A stretch of DNA of 39,747 nucleotides. It comes from Zetaproteobacteria bacterium. Its GTDB lineage: Bacteria; Pseudomonadota; Zetaproteobacteria; Mariprofundales; Mariprofundaceae. The notes beneath the pieces are model-generated. The model ran no database searches. It was given only the letters and a program-made list of their open reading frames with translations, and was not told the DNA's origin. Where the stretch lies: contig QILF01000127.1 in the NCBI GenBank assembly GCA_003233235.1, positions 1-39,747 of the forward strand, read 5' to 3'. Both the position numbers and the translations under genes were made by a program. Shown in pieces: positions 27,407 through 35,025 of this stretch; position 1 is the stretch's first letter, and the number at the start of each line of letters is the position of its first letter.

Positions 27407-27469
27407 GTGCGCAGTATGGCGGTGAAAGGGGGCATGTTCAATGCACACAGTTCAGTGTATAAATACGCC

Positions 27470-28153
27470 ATGACGTTGATAGATGAATCGGTTCGCGGGC
27501 ATCGCCAGCGCTTGCGGCAGCGTTTCGCTGCGCACGGCTTTGATGGTTTTCACGATTACGAGGTGCTGGAGTTGCTGCTGACTTACGCGATTCCGCGTAG
27601 CGATGTGAAACCTGCTGCTAAACGTTTGCTTGATGTTTTTGGCACGTTGGCCGGGGTGTTTGATGCGCCGGTTGTCGAGCTGGCGCAGGTCAAAGGCGTT
27701 GGTGAAAAGGCGGCGGTATTTTTAAATATCGTTAAACAGGCCGAGCTGCGTTATCTGGCCTCCGATTTACCCGGAAGAAAGGTGTTCGACAGGCCGGAGA
27801 AGGTGAAAGCGCATTTGCGTTTTCTGGTGCAGGACCGTGGTATGGAGTGTTTCGGGGCGATTTTCACCGATCAGCAACATCGGCATCTGGCGACCCAGAT
27901 TATGTTTGAGGGAACCGTGGACAGAACCGTTGTTTACCCGCGTAATCTGATGAAACGGGCGCTGGAGCTGGATGCCAAGGGGCTGGTTTTGTTCCACAAC
28001 CATCCCGGCGGAATACCGCTCGCCAGCGATGAGGATATTGCCCTGACAAGGCGTATGGCCAAGGCTTGCGAGCCGCTTGATATTAAGGTGCTTGATCATT
28101 TTCTTGTCGCGGGAACGGGTGTGATTTCATTCAAAGAGGAGGGTTGGTTTTGA
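27470..28153 (+). CDS. radC: RadC/JAMM-domain protein
   Basis: 227 aa from ATG 27470; upstream in-frame ATGs at 27407 and 27434 exist and no ribosome site decides. The N-terminal RadC part has a helix-hairpin-helix (LAQVKGVGEKAAVFLNI); the C-terminal part is the JAMM metal site HNHPGGIPLASDEDI. The historical DNA-repair role is not supported in later work and the activity is unknown. The final codons EEGWF-stop lie in a 25-bp sequence repeated exactly at the start of rlmB 6.9 kb downstream. The 3' end overlaps the convergent LVIVD gene by 23 bp. Confidence 0.93.
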   Translation: MTLIDESVRGHRQRLRQRFAAHGFDGFHDYEVLELLLTYAIPRSDVKPAAKRLLDVFGTLAGVFDAPVVELAQVKGVGEKAAVFLNIVKQAELRYLASDLPGRKVFDRPEKVKAHLRFLVQDRGMECFGAIFTDQQHRHLATQIMFEGTVDRTVVYPRNLMKRALELDAKGLVLFHNHPGGIPLASDEDIALTRRMAKACEPLDIKVLDHFLVAGTGVISFKEEGWF

Positions 28154-30449
28154 TTCTTGTCTCCTGTTTTGATTGTAAAGGTTTTTCAGTGCTTCCCGGG
28201 ATGCTGTAAATCGCGATTCCGCCGAGCTTGGGTTGTAGCAAGTAGTCACCGACAAAACCACCGACGTTCCAGCTAAACAGTTCATAGCCGGGGGAATAGA
28301 TTAGTTTCCGGTCCCATAATTTACGCCCGATTATATGACGTTTTTCCCATGTGTTTGCATCAATATCCAGGCTCTTGTGCAATTCGCCACTCTTGATCGC
28401 TTTTTTGTAGCGTTGTCGGCTCCAGTCTTCGGGTGTTAACGCAAGATATGGTTGAAACTCCCATGTGCTCAATACTGGCCGGAACGGAATCTTGATATCG
28501 TAGATGCGTAAGCCGCCCCAATAGTCGCTGACATAAAGGTGGTCGTCGCGGGCAAACATATCGTTGAGCATGTCGCCTTGGTGCAGCAAGCGTTCGTCGA
28601 ACCAGTCATCTTGGAATGCCGGAGGGGTGGATGGTGTTATATATACCTTGCGTATGTGCTGAAGGTCGGAAACGTCGAAGACGGCAATGTGTGGTGCATC
28701 CAACGCTTCGCTACCCTGAATCACATAGAGATAATCATCAACCAATGCGGCGCGGCGTCCTGCACCCTGCCATGTGTATCTGGCCCTGCGACCGATTCCT
28801 GCTTCCTGATAAACGCCTAGCAAATTGATCTGCGTCGGGTCGTTGATGTCGATAGCGATAATGGCATTGTCGGCAACGGCGAACAGACGCTTGCCGTCGG
28901 TAGCCGATGCACCGAAGTTGAACGCAAGCTCTGTAGGTAACGTTAATGTTCCCTGCAAGGATGGATGCAGAGGATCTTGCATGTCATATGCAAGCAGTTG
29001 AACACCCTGTTTAGCGACATGCAGCCATTGGAACATATGATTTTTCCATTTGACCGGAGGCATCAATGGCCGACCCGGCAGTTTCCATGTGCCGACCTCG
29101 ACAGGGTGCGCCGGGTCATGCGCATCAATAATATGGCGTACATAAGCTTTGCCATAATAGAAGTAGGGACGAATAATTGCCACCGCATAATCATCAAAGT
29201 GACCGGGGCGGTAATATCCGTTGATTTGGATGTGCAACGGATCGGAAACATCTAACAAAGCAACTGTGCCGCCCCATTCAAGATTAGCCAGGGCCATGGG
29301 ACCATCAATCAGCAATTGCTGGGTTTCCCCCGCACTCATATATACTGTTCCAAGCACAGGTTTATCCGGTCGGGACACATCAAGACGCCATACGCCGTAA
29401 TATGTGTCAATTGCGTAGGCAAGCTTTCCGGCCAGTACGATTTGTTGAAGGTTCGTGCGTGGCCAGCGAATATGTCGCACATGTTGCAAACTCCCGTTTT
29501 GCCAGTGAAACACATGCAGGCCACGATCAGGGCCGCTCAAGCGGTCGCCGGTTCCCAGCACATAGGCCCATGCACCTTGCGCGACGATGGATGAAGTGCG
29601 TTGCATACTTCCCGCATCACTATGGCCCAGCAGTACAGGCTGATTGGGATTGCTGATATCCAGTATTTCGACGGTCTTTCCGCCAACATTCAGCCAAGCA
29701 TGCACACCGTCCACGCTAATGCCTAGAATCTTGTCCGTTGCCTGATAACTGCCGAGAAGTCGAGGATGTTCCGGTTCTTTCAAAGAGTAGATTTCAAGGA
29801 AAGAGGCGTAGGTTGCGAAGCCGATGCCTTTATAAATAGTGGAAAACAGTGGCACATGTGCAAGGTGATGATACTGGATGTTGTCGATGTCACTGACATC
29901 GACAACGTATACCCCGGCCTGCGGTGTGCCCGGGTGTTTCGGCCAGTCCTTCCAGTTACCCTCGGGTTTGATGCGCAGGTAGAGGTAATGCCGATTGCCT
30001 AATGCCAGCCCGACCATGTGTCTTCCATGATCAACCGGTGGTGGCATACGCCAGTGGCCGATGCGCTTTAGCGTGCCGTCATCAGCCATATTGAACATTG
30101 ATATGCCGTAATAATTGGCCAGTTGATAAACTCGATTACCCAGCTTAATGAGGCTGCCGTTGGTGTTGCCGGTATCAAAAGATTGCGCGAGTCGTGGTTT
30201 GTCGGCATTTCGCCAGTCAATGCGTTGCAGGCCGCGAAAGGTTTCGGCGTTGCTTAGCAGCACTTGATCGCCAACCGGAATTACCTGAACCGGCCAACCG
30301 TGCGGTAAATCGGTGAAAGCGACGCGTGTAATACCTGAAACGGGGGTGGTTGTGAGCACCTCGCCTTTTCCATCTTTCTGCGCCGTTATTGTTATCAGCG
30401 TTAAAAGAAGTAACGCGGACAGTCCGTAAGCCAGTCGCTTATTCAGCAT
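28131..30449 (-). CDS. Exported LVIVD-repeat beta-propeller protein
   Basis: A 772-aa protein with an N-terminal export segment (LAYGLSALLLLTLITITA) and many repeats of the LVIVD kind: GVYVVDVSDIDN, TVEILDISNPNQPVLLG, GVWRLDVSRPDKPVLG, GTVALLDVSDPLH, IIAIDINDPTQINLLG, HIAVFDVSDLQHI and GLRIYDIKIPFRPVL, consistent with one or two beta-propellers outside the cytoplasm. Function unknown; such proteins are found on cell surfaces. It has no PEP-CTERM tail. Its last nine residues (TRIKTNPPL) are encoded by the 25-bp direct repeat and its stop lies inside radC, so its original C-terminus was probably replaced when the cassette inserted. Confidence 0.85.
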   Translation of the reverse strand: MLNKRLAYGLSALLLLTLITITAQKDGKGEVLTTTPVSGITRVAFTDLPHGWPVQVIPVGDQVLLSNAETFRGLQRIDWRNADKPRLAQSFDTGNTNGSLIKLGNRVYQLANYYGISMFNMADDGTLKRIGHWRMPPPVDHGRHMVGLALGNRHYLYLRIKPEGNWKDWPKHPGTPQAGVYVVDVSDIDNIQYHHLAHVPLFSTIYKGIGFATYASFLEIYSLKEPEHPRLLGSYQATDKILGISVDGVHAWLNVGGKTVEILDISNPNQPVLLGHSDAGSMQRTSSIVAQGAWAYVLGTGDRLSGPDRGLHVFHWQNGSLQHVRHIRWPRTNLQQIVLAGKLAYAIDTYYGVWRLDVSRPDKPVLGTVYMSAGETQQLLIDGPMALANLEWGGTVALLDVSDPLHIQINGYYRPGHFDDYAVAIIRPYFYYGKAYVRHIIDAHDPAHPVEVGTWKLPGRPLMPPVKWKNHMFQWLHVAKQGVQLLAYDMQDPLHPSLQGTLTLPTELAFNFGASATDGKRLFAVADNAIIAIDINDPTQINLLGVYQEAGIGRRARYTWQGAGRRAALVDDYLYVIQGSEALDAPHIAVFDVSDLQHIRKVYITPSTPPAFQDDWFDERLLHQGDMLNDMFARDDHLYVSDYWGGLRIYDIKIPFRPVLSTWEFQPYLALTPEDWSRQRYKKAIKSGELHKSLDIDANTWEKRHIIGRKLWDRKLIYSPGYELFSWNVGGFVGDYLLQPKLGGIAIYSIPGSTEKPLQSKQETRIKTNPPL
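28135..28159 (+). repeat. Left 25-bp direct repeat of the exosortase cassette
   Basis: AGAGGAGGGTTGGTTTTGATTCTTG, identical to 35001-35025. It covers the radC stop (TGA) and is followed here by unrelated sequence. Confidence 0.95.
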
Positions 30450-30511
30450 GCTTGGACTTTAGGCCATTGATGCGATGCGCACCAGTCTTGCAAGTATTTG
30501 CCCAGCCAAGG

Positions 30512-30543
30512 AAAAAAGGAGCCGCGTTGCTGCGACTCCTTTT
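30512..30543 (-). terminator. Intrinsic terminator behind the PEP-CTERM gene
   Basis: AAAAGGAG and CTCCTTTT are complementary arms with further CGC-GCG pairing inside. Read on the minus strand the hairpin ends in a run of T. It is 25 nt after the PEP-CTERM stop and separates it from the LVIVD gene. Confidence 0.8.
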
Positions 30544-30567
30544 CCAAATCTTCTTTTGCCAATCAAA

Positions 30568-31224
30568 TCAAGCGGTGATAGTCATTTCCAGCGGTGCATC
30601 GTCATCCTGCCGACGGCGCATCCACCAAGTGGTGAATCCCATCATGGTCAGAAGCAGAACCCAGGTTTGCGGTTCCGGCACGCCGGGAGGTGGTATTCCC
30701 TTATTTGGTGCCATAATAGAACCCGAGGTCATTCCGATAGGAGATCCGCCTACTATAACGGAACTGATTCGAGCGACGGATAGCGTAGGGGCAACGGTAC
30801 TGGTCCACCAAGCGGTGACGGTGTCTGCAGACGTGGTTAGGCCAGGTCCAATGACACTAAGTTGAAAACCTTGATTTGAGGACGCTCCTGCGGGCGGGCT
30901 GATGGTGTTTGTTGTCGTTAGTCCCGCGCCTGTCGCAACAATTCCGCCATTTGTGATGTCGGCTGATGTGCCTGCCCATATCTCAAGCAGGGGATCCCCC
31001 GGATTTGTGGCCCAGCCGTTCAATGTGTACTGATAGGTATAAGCGCTACTGCTTCCGGAGAAGGAACCGGTATCAGTGGGTTTATACACTGACCAGTTTA
31101 CTATGGCTGCATCACCGGGGGTTGAGCTGAAGGCGAAATTCGCTGTGCCTGTCCATGACGGGGCAGCTTCTGCCTGCAACGGCACAAACAGCAGGAGCAT
31201 GCCCAGTAAGATAAGTTTTTTCAT
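30568..31224 (-). CDS. PEP-CTERM sorted exoprotein
   Basis: A 218-aa secreted protein. A signal peptide (MKKLILLGMLLLFVPLQAEAA) precedes a Ser/Thr/Gly-rich beta-type region of about 155 residues without a recognised domain, then the sorting tail VPEPQTWVLLLTMMGFTTWWMRRRQ: PEP motif, membrane helix, Arg cluster. The exosortase encoded next to it is the likely processing enzyme. Unusually, 14 residues (QDDDAPLEMTITA-type tail) follow the Arg cluster, where most PEP-CTERM proteins end within a few residues. GGGAGG before ATG 31224 fixes the start (the ORF opens at 31260). A terminator lies downstream. Confidence 0.9.
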   Translation of the reverse strand: MKKLILLGMLLLFVPLQAEAAPSWTGTANFAFSSTPGDAAIVNWSVYKPTDTGSFSGSSSAYTYQYTLNGWATNPGDPLLEIWAGTSADITNGGIVATGAGLTTTNTISPPAGASSNQGFQLSVIGPGLTTSADTVTAWWTSTVAPTLSVARISSVIVGGSPIGMTSGSIMAPNKGIPPPGVPEPQTWVLLLTMMGFTTWWMRRRQDDDAPLEMTITA

Positions 31225-31343
31225 TATAGCCTCCCATTGCACTGCGCCAAGTCGACACAAATCGTAGGGGTATTATATGAAAGAGGCAACACCTTTTTTG
31301 CTGACAAGCTATTTATTCAGGTTTCCCGTATCCAGGATCGGTG

Positions 31344-32948
31344 TCAGCGTAGAGGCATGGTTTGCCATAGGGCGGCGAGGCGCTGGCGGGCGCGACGGAC
31401 TTCGAATTGCCGATCGCCTGTTTGTCCGAAGGGCGTGGATATATGCACCACTGCGATGTTATCCAACTGGCGCATAGCGCGGGCTAGCATCTGGTATAGA
31501 CGAAATTCGACATAATTATTCACCCAGCGGTTGCCAACCCGGAATGCGAACCAGTCCAAGCGGGTGATGCCGAGGCGTGGTAGTTCCTCAATGATTTCAT
31601 TGATCTCCGGCGCATCGCCTTGCGCGTTGGCTGGCAAGATGCGTGATCGCTCATCCAGCATACGCCAACCTTTGCTACGGTAGCAATAGCGCGGGTCGTC
31701 CACATCGCGTCCCGGACCACCCAGACTGATGATGAGTTGTCCGTCCACTATCGCTTGCGCATCGGTTTTCGATTGAAAACGGACAACGCGGACAATGGCA
31801 CCGGCCTGCATACTTTGCTGAATTTCTTTGAGTGAGGCATCAATAGTGCTGCCCTGAACAAGCTGCCAGCCGTTTGGAGCTGGCCATTCGGGTAGTGAAA
31901 TTGAAGATTTTTCACCCGGAATGGCATAAGAAGCGATGCCTGCAAGCAGGAAAACGACACCCATAAAGCGCCAGCCTCCCGGTTGGCCGATTGCTAGGCA
32001 TAGATTGGGTTGGCGTAGGGCGTGCAGTATTGTTTGATATGTATTCGACAGTGTGAATCGTTGTCTTCTTATCCCGAAATCCTTTGGTTTGTCGAGCCAG
32101 GTGAGCAGTAACGCGGCTTCAAATATAATCAGTAAAAAGGGGGAAATATCTTCAACCCAGACCATTGCCCAATCGGGATTCAGGTAGTGCCCGATAGCCA
32201 GTGCTGTGGTTAATCTTATGCTGTTGCCGACGAGAATAATGGACAGCACAACCAGCGGGTGCAGCCAGCGTTGCCTGATACTGCCCCAACCCGCACCCAT
32301 AAAATAAATTGCGATACTCAGCACGGCAACAAAGGAACGCAGCCCGGAACATGTTTCTTCAACAACCAGTTTGAAGCGTCCAGAATCAAGGACAACGCCT
32401 TCCTGAAGAATTGGCAAGCCTAGAAAATCAAGTACAAGCCGCGCCAACGAGGAAGATATTTCCTGTAGCGGCAGGGCCATATATTGAACGATGCTCCACG
32501 GCCACGGGATGGCAAGCAGGGTAAAATAAAGTGGCATTCGAATGCTGCGGAAACGTGCTGTACCGATTCGCCAGTGAATCATGCCAAAGATAGATAATAG
32601 CCAGCCGATGGCCTTGAAACTGGCGATATCAAGTCCGAGTCCGACAAATAAAACAAGGCTGCCAACGGGCAACAGGAATCGTTCCATGCGTGCGAGCAGA
32701 CTCGCGGCATGTGTGTCAGTATTGTCGGAGGTCGATGCCTTGTATATTGTCGGCTGGATGGAGGAAAAACGCCAGATAGCAACGGCGATACCCCATAGCA
32801 TCACCAGTCCACCGTGACTGAAATAGGGGTCGGTAGCCCATGAAATGAAAAACCATGGAATAATTTGCAGGCCGGTAAGCAATAGCAAACAGGCGGCTAG
32901 CCACCAAGAGGCAGTGTTCATTCGCCATTTTGGTAAAATTTTGCCCAT
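31344..32948 (-). CDS. Exosortase with fused C-terminal EpsI domain
   Basis: A 534-aa protein. Residues 1 to about 290 form a polytopic membrane exosortase: catalytic Cys200 in EETCSGLRSF, Arg245 in GNSIRLT and His254 in AIGHY, the cysteine-arginine-histidine set of the family. Exosortases cleave PEP-CTERM tails during export, with presumed transfer of the protein to a surface acceptor. Residues of about 325-534 (after another hydrophobic helix, GVVFLLAGIASYAI) are an EpsI-like domain, found either fused or separate in exopolysaccharide-linked exosortase loci. The ATG at 32948 lacks a good ribosome site; ATG 32921 is an alternative. Divergent from the TPR gene. Confidence 0.9.
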   Translation of the reverse strand: MGKILPKWRMNTASWWLAACLLLLTGLQIIPWFFISWATDPYFSHGGLVMLWGIAVAIWRFSSIQPTIYKASTSDNTDTHAASLLARMERFLLPVGSLVLFVGLGLDIASFKAIGWLLSIFGMIHWRIGTARFRSIRMPLYFTLLAIPWPWSIVQYMALPLQEISSSLARLVLDFLGLPILQEGVVLDSGRFKLVVEETCSGLRSFVAVLSIAIYFMGAGWGSIRQRWLHPLVVLSIILVGNSIRLTTALAIGHYLNPDWAMVWVEDISPFLLIIFEAALLLTWLDKPKDFGIRRQRFTLSNTYQTILHALRQPNLCLAIGQPGGWRFMGVVFLLAGIASYAIPGEKSSISLPEWPAPNGWQLVQGSTIDASLKEIQQSMQAGAIVRVVRFQSKTDAQAIVDGQLIISLGGPGRDVDDPRYCYRSKGWRMLDERSRILPANAQGDAPEINEIIEELPRLGITRLDWFAFRVGNRWVNNYVEFRLYQMLARAMRQLDNIAVVHISTPFGQTGDRQFEVRRARQRLAALWQTMPLR

Positions 32949-32968
32949 ATCGTAGGAGTGTATCAGAA

Positions 32969-34972
32969 ATGGTGAAGAAGAAGTCGAGGAAAAAAATGCC
33001 GTTGGGCTTCAAGTTGATGTGGGCGGTTTTATTTGTCGGTATTGCTTCGGGGGTTGGCTGGGGTGCGTGGCAATTGACGCCGGGCAAGCGTATGCAACGG
33101 CTAGTTGACCATGCGCGCGAGATGATAGCCGAAAAATCGTGGGGTGAGAGTATCGTCGCCTTGCGCAAAGCGCTGAAAATCTACCCGGATAACAAAGGGC
33201 TTCATTATATGTTGATGCAAAGTCTGTTTGCCGATGGAAAAGCAAGGCAGGGCTTAGCCGAGATGGAAAATATGCTGTTAATGCCGCCATTTGATGGCGA
33301 TATTTATCGCAGTCATTTCGATGAATATTACGGCATGGTGCGCATTGCCGGTAATCCGGAGGAAATGCATGCCCAAGCAGAAAAAATGCGCGGGATATTA
33401 CCTGAAAATGATTATTGGATGACTGATTTGCTGGATGCCCAAGCGTATTTTATAAAAGGAGAGCGAGATAAGGCTGTTGTTTTGTTTAGGCAGATTGTCG
33501 AATCGGGTATCGACCATTATTTGTTGAAACTGGATATGGCACAAGCCCTTCTGGCTGTGGGAAAGTTCACTGAGGCGGAGGTGGTTTACACAGGACTTCT
33601 AAAAAGGGATCCGAATGCGCTTGACCCGCTTAATGGTCTGGCGATGTCACTGGCCTTTCAGGGTAGGAGGGATGAGGCACTGGATGCTTATATTCGGGCA
33701 TCACTATCCAGCGAGCCGCCGGTTCTAGGGGTGCTACTCAATGGCGCGATGTTCTCTATGAATCAGAATAGAATAAAGGAAGCAAAGAAATATTTTATCG
33801 ATCGATTGACAAAATATTATCCTGACAACACAAAGGGTCTACTGATTCGGATACGATACGCTGTGCTGGCGAAAGACGAGGCACATTTTTTTCGTATGCT
33901 GGGCGTTAAGCTTTTACAGATCAAAAAGAATCAATTTATCGAATTGACGAACTGGTGTTTAAATCATGGACAGCCGCGCTGGGCGTTGCAAATGTTGCAG
34001 GATTATACACCACCGGATATGGAAACGGATGTTGTCATTGAGTATCGCATTCTAGCCATGATTCACTTGCAGCAAATGGACGAGGCAAAAAAACTGGTGA
34101 GTGAAATTACCGATCAGCAGCGGCGGGATTTTTTGTTGGCTGAGATTGATTTTCAATCTGGAAAATTGCAAGCCGCCGAAAAAGCATTCGCAAAATTGGT
34201 CGCTACAGGTGAGGAATCTTCGACAGGTGTTTCGCGGGCGGCCCGGCAGCGGATGATGATTATCAATGCGTTGCAGAAGAAATTGGACAATGCAGAGTTG
34301 CTGCCCCGAGCGCGTATTTTGCTGGCGCAAGGTAAGGCGGAAACCGTGCTTGAACTGCTGTCAGGAGCCAAAAAATCGGATGCGGATATCGGTTTGCTTG
34401 GTGTGATGGCGTTGATGCAGTTGGATAGAAAAGAGAAAGCCGTGGCGGCACTGGAAGTGTTGCGCAAGCAGTATCCTGACCGTGAAGATGTTTGGTTGAT
34501 ATGGGGACGTAGCGTTAGTGAGACGAATCCAGAAAAGGCGCTGGACGGACTTCAGAAAGCGATTGCCAGCAAAGCCGATGGCCCTAGCTTGAGAAGCCTT
34601 CTCGGCGAGGTGCAGTACAAGCTTGGTCAACACGATGCGGCGATAAGAACCTGGCGAACGGTTTCGAAACGGTGGCCGAATACGCTGAGCGGCAATATTG
34701 CCAATGTGTTTCGTGCACAGGCATATATGGCTAAAAAGGACTGGTCATCGGCGACGACGATATGGGAGCTGGTATTGAAAATAGCGCCGGATGACCCGTT
34801 GACGTTGAACAACCTGGCTTACTGCTTGCTGAAAAGTGGCCGCGAACTGACCAGAGCCAAGGCTATGGCTGAACATGCCTTGCTTATTCAACCGGGCAAT
34901 GCAGCAATTTCGGATACGTTAAATGAAATCAGAAAGCTTATGCAGCATGGCAAAACGAAGGCTGCCGGATAA
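32969..34972 (+). CDS. Membrane-anchored TPR-repeat protein of the exosortase cassette
   Basis: A 667-aa protein. A basic N-terminus (VKKKSRKKMP) and one membrane helix (LMWAVLFVGIASGVGWGAW) are followed by helical tetratricopeptide repeats over nearly the whole length (for example WGESIVALRKALKIYPDNKGLHYMLM, GKFTEAEVVYTGLLKRDPNALDPLNGLAMSLAFQGRRDEAL, LTLNNLAYCLLKSGRELTRAKAMAEHALLIQPGNAAISDTL). TPR proteins of the PrsT kind accompany exosortase systems; this one has a helix anchor rather than a lipobox. AGGAG about 10 nt before ATG 32969 supports that start (the ORF opens at 32930). Role in assembly or export of surface material is inference. Confidence 0.85.
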   Translation: MVKKKSRKKMPLGFKLMWAVLFVGIASGVGWGAWQLTPGKRMQRLVDHAREMIAEKSWGESIVALRKALKIYPDNKGLHYMLMQSLFADGKARQGLAEMENMLLMPPFDGDIYRSHFDEYYGMVRIAGNPEEMHAQAEKMRGILPENDYWMTDLLDAQAYFIKGERDKAVVLFRQIVESGIDHYLLKLDMAQALLAVGKFTEAEVVYTGLLKRDPNALDPLNGLAMSLAFQGRRDEALDAYIRASLSSEPPVLGVLLNGAMFSMNQNRIKEAKKYFIDRLTKYYPDNTKGLLIRIRYAVLAKDEAHFFRMLGVKLLQIKKNQFIELTNWCLNHGQPRWALQMLQDYTPPDMETDVVIEYRILAMIHLQQMDEAKKLVSEITDQQRRDFLLAEIDFQSGKLQAAEKAFAKLVATGEESSTGVSRAARQRMMIINALQKKLDNAELLPRARILLAQGKAETVLELLSGAKKSDADIGLLGVMALMQLDRKEKAVAALEVLRKQYPDREDVWLIWGRSVSETNPEKALDGLQKAIASKADGPSLRSLLGEVQYKLGQHDAAIRTWRTVSKRWPNTLSGNIANVFRAQAYMAKKDWSSATTIWELVLKIAPDDPLTLNNLAYCLLKSGRELTRAKAMAEHALLIQPGNAAISDTLNEIRKLMQHGKTKAAG

Positions 34973-35000: not shown

Positions 35001-35025
35001 AGAGGAGGGTTGGTTTTGATTCTTG
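35001..35025 (+). repeat. Right 25-bp direct repeat, carrying the rlmB ribosome site and start
   Basis: Identical to 28135-28159; here it contains GAGGAGGG and the TTG start of rlmB. The neighbouring bases on both sides differ between the two copies, so the repeat is exactly 25 bp. Confidence 0.95.

Follow-up and report, generated by a model that had tools for sequence, protein, structure and literature searches.

The window analysed here, a stretch of 39,747 nucleotides taken to be zetaproteobacterial and from the iron-oxidiser lineage, contains a compact cassette of four genes (28131-34972) between the housekeeping genes radC (27407-28153) and rlmB (start at 35016). Open reading frames and profile searches bear out the genes where an earlier note on this DNA had placed them: an LVIVD-repeat protein, one PEP-CTERM protein, an exosortase-EpsI fusion and a TPR protein (Table 1). 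From radC to rlmB, the first three genes lie on the reverse strand and the TPR gene on the forward strand, divergent from the exosortase gene. We propose that the cassette is a dedicated exosortase system that was inserted as one block at the radC/rlmB junction and would work by the mechanism outlined below. We give this reading a probability of roughly 0.72. The base composition of the cassette differs slightly (50.5% vs 52.9% G+C). The left part of the window is a division and cell-wall cluster with MraZ, MraW, a penicillin-binding protein and, presumably, FtsZ and LpxC. Genes for cytochrome b, a Rieske protein and cytochrome c (bc1-type complex) are found at its left edge (2-2609).

Table 1. 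Features of the cassette and its borders (positions in the window)
Feature	Position	Strand	Remarks
Left copy of 25-bp direct repeat, AGAGGAGGGTTGGTTTTGATTCTTG	28135..28159	+	holds radC stop codon and ghost of rlmB start
LVIVD-repeat protein	28131..30449	-	LVIVD profile; N-terminal hydrophobic signal/anchor
Hairpin, terminator-like, downstream of PEP-CTERM gene	30510..30546 (approximate limits)	-	stem GGAAAAGGAGUCGC...GCGGCUCCUUUUUUCC
PEP-CTERM substrate	30568..31224	-	signal peptide, beta-rich domain, tail PGVPEPQTWVLLLTMMGFTTWWMRRRQ
Exosortase-EpsI fusion	31344..32948	-	Cys200, Arg245, His254; subfamily not assigned
TPR-repeat protein	32930..34972	+	one N-terminal membrane segment; divergent from exosortase gene
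Right copy of 25-bp direct repeat, AGAGGAGGGTTGGTTTTGATTCTTG	35001..35025	+	holds rlmB ribosome-binding site, TTG start (35016) and ghost of radC end

The fusion protein belongs to the exosortase superfamily according to PF09721 (109.1 bits, cut-off 25.7) and TIGR04178 (43.5 bits, cut-off 23); with the broader model TIGR02602 it scores 77 bits, under the cut-off of 105.55. Its EpsI-like C-terminal domain is recognized by DUF3485 (44.4 bits, cut-off 26.1) and stays under the cut-off of TIGR02914 (31.1 vs 42.8 bits). The catalytic residues Cys200, Arg245 and His254 had been correctly picked out in the earlier note and are invariant in an alignment of all four homologues found. Comparison with the XrtA model TIGR03109 gave 70.9 bits for a cut-off of 208, and with this model the four homologues reach an E-value of 5.4e-22 at best, in a similarly low range. 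The best-scoring named subfamilies are XrtD (88.3 bits, cut-off 400), XrtV (82.7, cut-off 313) and XrtW (66.3, cut-off 425), and the enzyme and its three relatives are far under the cut-off of every named subfamily in NCBIfam. From these scores, the enzyme is assigned to a putative unnamed subfamily. It is accompanied by one substrate and by a TPR partner that is conserved.

Of the 74 genomes of the family, a protein query identified three with the exosortase: the source genome, G068 from the same genus and G066 from the same family. Scanning with PF09721 added an enzyme of a different, known kind (XrtE) in G046, and G010 gave a weak match interrupted by stops. Across the phylum, a sample of 398 genomes contained one further carrier only, G074, from another family. 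In a collection of genome contigs, the single exosortase protein gave no match and the alignment retrieved two records only, which correspond to G068 and G066. Identity to the window is 62% in G068, 54% in G066 and 41% in G074 for the exosortase, and 48%, 46% and 29%, respectively, for the TPR protein.

The G068 cassette occupies the same radC/rlmB place and contains the TPR protein, the exosortase, two substrates and the LVIVD protein. The tail of the second substrate (L012:12554-13173) is split between two frames by a one-base difference right after PEPQTW, which reflects either a broken gene (pseudogene) or an assembly error. Between the LVIVD gene and radC of G068 (L012:15752-18105), we also observed genes for a small cytochrome c-like protein, similar to the cytochrome c at the left edge of the window, and for two Lcl_C-domain proteins, one of them with a Calx-beta domain. 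In G066, the TPR protein, exosortase and substrate are located between panD and a kinase gene that we take to be homoserine-kinase-like, and the LVIVD protein is absent. In G074, the divergent TPR/exosortase pair adjoins one substrate; this DUF4114 protein is unrelated, and its tail reads PGIPENDTW. A divergent TPR-exosortase pair with an adjoining substrate is therefore present in all four carriers, and this recurrence designates TPR protein, exosortase and exchangeable substrate as the core. The four-gene set described earlier stands for these three components and is otherwise not fixed, since the LVIVD gene is optional (2/4 carriers) and G068 has two substrates.

Exosortase protein-sorting systems often handle dozens of proteins. 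The situation is different in the source genome, a draft of 2.02 Mb in 157 contigs, 96% complete. Scans with TIGR02602 and PF09721 detected one exosortase gene, and the general PEP-CTERM model found one protein above its cut-off, the sole other match having 12.9 bits (E 0.76). The PEP-CTERM protein was classified from TIGR02595 (cut-off 16; 17.6 bits with the protein sequence and 21.7 bits when the genome was scanned), its signal peptide and the C-terminal position of its tail, which has the motif PEPQTW; its PF07589 score of 16.3 bits is just under the cut-off of 20.7. A profile built from the tails of the cassette family itself identified one tail each in the source genome, G066 and G074 and two in G068. 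Elsewhere in the carriers and in the non-carriers G067, G069, G045 and G018, it gave only matches weaker than E 0.19. G066 likewise has one exosortase and one PEP-CTERM tail. The sole exosortase gene and the sole PEP-CTERM gene of the 2.02-Mb genome are only 120 bp apart and three further genomes show this arrangement, which argues against a chance pairing. One enzyme and one target encoded by adjoining genes make this a dedicated system, as the earlier note had supposed, in a draft genome where a second substrate could be missing from the contigs and where tails very unlike PEP would escape the profiles. The opposite possibility, a general XrtA serving many substrates, had been set as the refuting case in the earlier note and was rejected: the XrtA score is far under its cut-off and the genome has one tail.

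The predicted structure of the substrate (mean pLDDT 64.7) shows a beta-rich domain followed by one helix. Its comparison with the PDB gave no significant match, and hits at TM 0.2-0.4 were treated as generic beta-sandwich noise. The terminator-like hairpin downstream of the substrate gene (fold of 30495-30567 on the reverse strand, MFE -24.1 kcal/mol, z -2.05) suggests transcription separate from that of the downstream LVIVD gene. No sigma-54-like site, as in a PrsR-type promoter, was found upstream of the substrate gene, and matches across the window did not exceed chance.

The cassette is bordered by two copies of a direct repeat that are identical at 25 of 25 positions; the longest word shared within any of 200 shuffled pairs of the 500-base flanks was 12. 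No further copy was found in the window at up to 7 mismatches. The repeat corresponds to the overlapping radC/rlmB junction, duplicated around the cassette, and its left copy retains rlmB-start bases that serve nothing there. In G067, a congener without exosortase, radC and rlmB overlap directly at the repeat sequence, with 4 mismatches. The last codons and stop of the LVIVD gene lie in the repeat and antisense to radC, and the G068 LVIVD protein ends differently. As in an integrative element, flanking direct repeats are thus accompanied by an empty site in a relative. The exact repeat, the empty site and the position of the LVIVD end, all read from sequence, indicate insertion of the cassette as a unit with duplication of the junction. 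The insertion is probably recent and in the lineage of the source genome, given the exact identity of the repeats, with gene conversion as an alternative.

Conversely, the cassette could be an old, vertically inherited locus of the genus, lost in G067 and G069, with a repeat whose identity reflects constraint or gene conversion and is thus uninformative on insertion. The source genome and G068 have their cassettes at the same locus, the exosortase identities follow taxonomy and would fit vertical descent within the genus together with loss, and coding and the ribosome-binding site of rlmB constrain part of the repeat. However, the 25/25 match includes bases under no evident constraint, six past the radC stop in the left copy and others upstream of the ribosome-binding site in the right copy, and G068 has no such repeat. 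Moreover, a different insert follows radC in G069, apparently the nearest congener as judged from its radC and MoeB identities, which are the highest. We therefore consider this explanation unlikely and retain insertion as a unit. The G069 insert (L044:8712-12118), directly after radC in the place of the cassette, comprises SGNH-like and MBOAT-like (surface acylation) genes, presumably so as read from their translations. Its presence suggests that the radC/rlmB junction may be an insertion hotspot in the genus.

To the earlier note, the cassette had also looked like a minimal mobile unit for surface display. The repeat, the empty site, the patchy distribution and the different loci are circumstantial arguments for mobility, and would fit movement by transfer rather than loss elsewhere; on the other side, no integrase or transposase is encoded among the four genes between the repeats, and no excision was seen. 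No flanking direct repeat of at least 9 bases surrounds the G066 and G074 cassettes in the stretches compared, and no Rfam or tRNA feature was found at the radC/rlmB junction. Carriage by plasmids was rejected, since the exosortases in the plasmid collection are all distant, with partial alignments at about 30% identity, as was viral carriage, with no close relative in the viral collections.

The TPR gene probably starts at an ATG near 32970. Its product has one N-terminal hydrophobic segment and is presumably membrane-anchored and periplasmic. PrsT is its best named relative, at 125.9 bits for a cut-off of 312.2, so that the protein is not assigned to PrsT. Comparison of its profile with solved structures gave generic TPR proteins as best matches and a weaker match to PA4667, which we take to be the adaptor of the periplasmic protease CtpA. 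Because of this weaker match, a role as adaptor is our preferred reading of the TPR protein. The LVIVD protein scores 34.6 bits with the Pfam LVIVD model (cut-off 20.2); its structure model was too poor for use (pLDDT 48). Its only homologue among the 74 family genomes is in G068, so that 2/74 genomes have the protein, both of them cassette carriers. We regard it as a likely accessory, restricted to the two carriers of this genus.

Proteins with TPR or LVIVD repeats are common, and their link to the exosortase is drawn from sequence. One may thus imagine that both are neighbours by accident, with unrelated roles, the system being reduced to exosortase and substrate. For the TPR protein, this idea fits poorly with a homologue in the same divergent position in 4/4 carriers at three different chromosomal loci. 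The LVIVD protein co-occurs exactly with the cassette, though in two genomes only, and for this protein the idea is plausible. Overall, we judge a neighbourhood accident somewhat less probable than vertical inheritance, and keep the TPR protein in the dedicated system.

As stated in the earlier note, no glycosyltransferase is encoded in the cassette. One PF02397 sugar transferase was found in the source genome, on another contig, and none anywhere in the genomes of carriers G066 and G074; the search for an exopolysaccharide (EPS) priming enzyme consisted of PF02397 only, which does not prove these genomes EPS-free. Least probable of the alternatives is that the surviving pair is decaying, having once belonged to a larger, general PEP-CTERM/exopolysaccharide system whose further substrates and EPS genes are gone. 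A PEP-CTERM protein that occurs singly may be such a remnant (Haft 2006, PMC1569441), and in G068 the reading frame of the second substrate changes within the tail. However, decay would not preserve the three-gene core, catalytic residues and intact tails in four genomes, two of them from other genera or families, two carriers have no PF02397 transferase and the XrtA model is far from matched.

In the dedicated system that we propose, the signal peptide of the PEP-CTERM protein would direct its export, and the C-terminal helix and the basic tail would keep it in the inner membrane. Using Cys200 with Arg245 and His254, the exosortase would then cut at the PEP motif and pass the protein on, which would either be attached to an acceptor or be set free to the outside. 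The TPR protein, anchored in the membrane, may act as adaptor or scaffold of the exosortase, and the LVIVD protein could be an envelope protein with an accessory role in the form of the system found in this genus. For the questions of what becomes of exosortase substrates after cutting and whether exopolysaccharide is needed, the cassette reduces the problem to three jointly movable, testable genes: it combines a sole enzyme with a sole substrate and a TPR partner, and it carries no EPS genes.

The cassette can be compared with several known systems. The XrtA/PEP-CTERM system comprises EpsI, PrsT, PrsK and PrsR (Haft 2006, PMC1569441). The cassette shares with it a multi-pass exosortase with Cys/Arg/His, an EpsI domain, a PEP-CTERM tail and a TPR protein distantly similar to PrsT. 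In contrast, it stays under the XrtA and PrsT cut-offs, has no EPS genes and has one substrate instead of many; no sigma-54-like site was found near the substrate gene. XrtD (VPLPA-CTERM), XrtV and XrtW are the best-scoring named models, and those of XrtD and XrtW, with about 490 positions, are similar in length to the fused protein; however, the scores are far under the cut-offs and the cassette tail is PEPQTW rather than VPLPA. In rhombosortase/GlyGly-CTERM pairs, defined as a dedicated system, the sorting enzyme is also encoded beside its only target (Haft and Varghese 2011, PMC3237569), but rhombosortase is an unrelated rhomboid protease and the tail is different. Dedicated sorting systems are thus already known in kind (PMC3237569), and the cassette is a variant of this kind, as yet without a name, that has a TPR partner. 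The literature searched, in which subscription papers were covered in part, yielded no paper joining exosortases and Zetaproteobacteria. Tentatively, and at somewhat less than even odds, the four carriers may define a new exosortase subfamily, made of an exosortase-EpsI fusion, a membrane-anchored TPR adaptor and a single interchangeable substrate, that spreads as a transferable display unit without exopolysaccharide locus and reuses a radC/rlmB hotspot in one genus. Conservation of the TPR gene suggests a partner that could easily escape notice in large genomes with many substrates; Haft and Varghese (PMC3237569) proposed searching dedicated systems for exactly such partners. Finally, another exosortase system exists in the same family: G046, from another genus and with no PEP-CTERM tail detected, encodes at L014:9117-10760 a protein of the XrtE/VPEID-CTERM exosortase-protease type (192 bits, cut-off 150), a different enzyme with a CAAX-protease-like domain.
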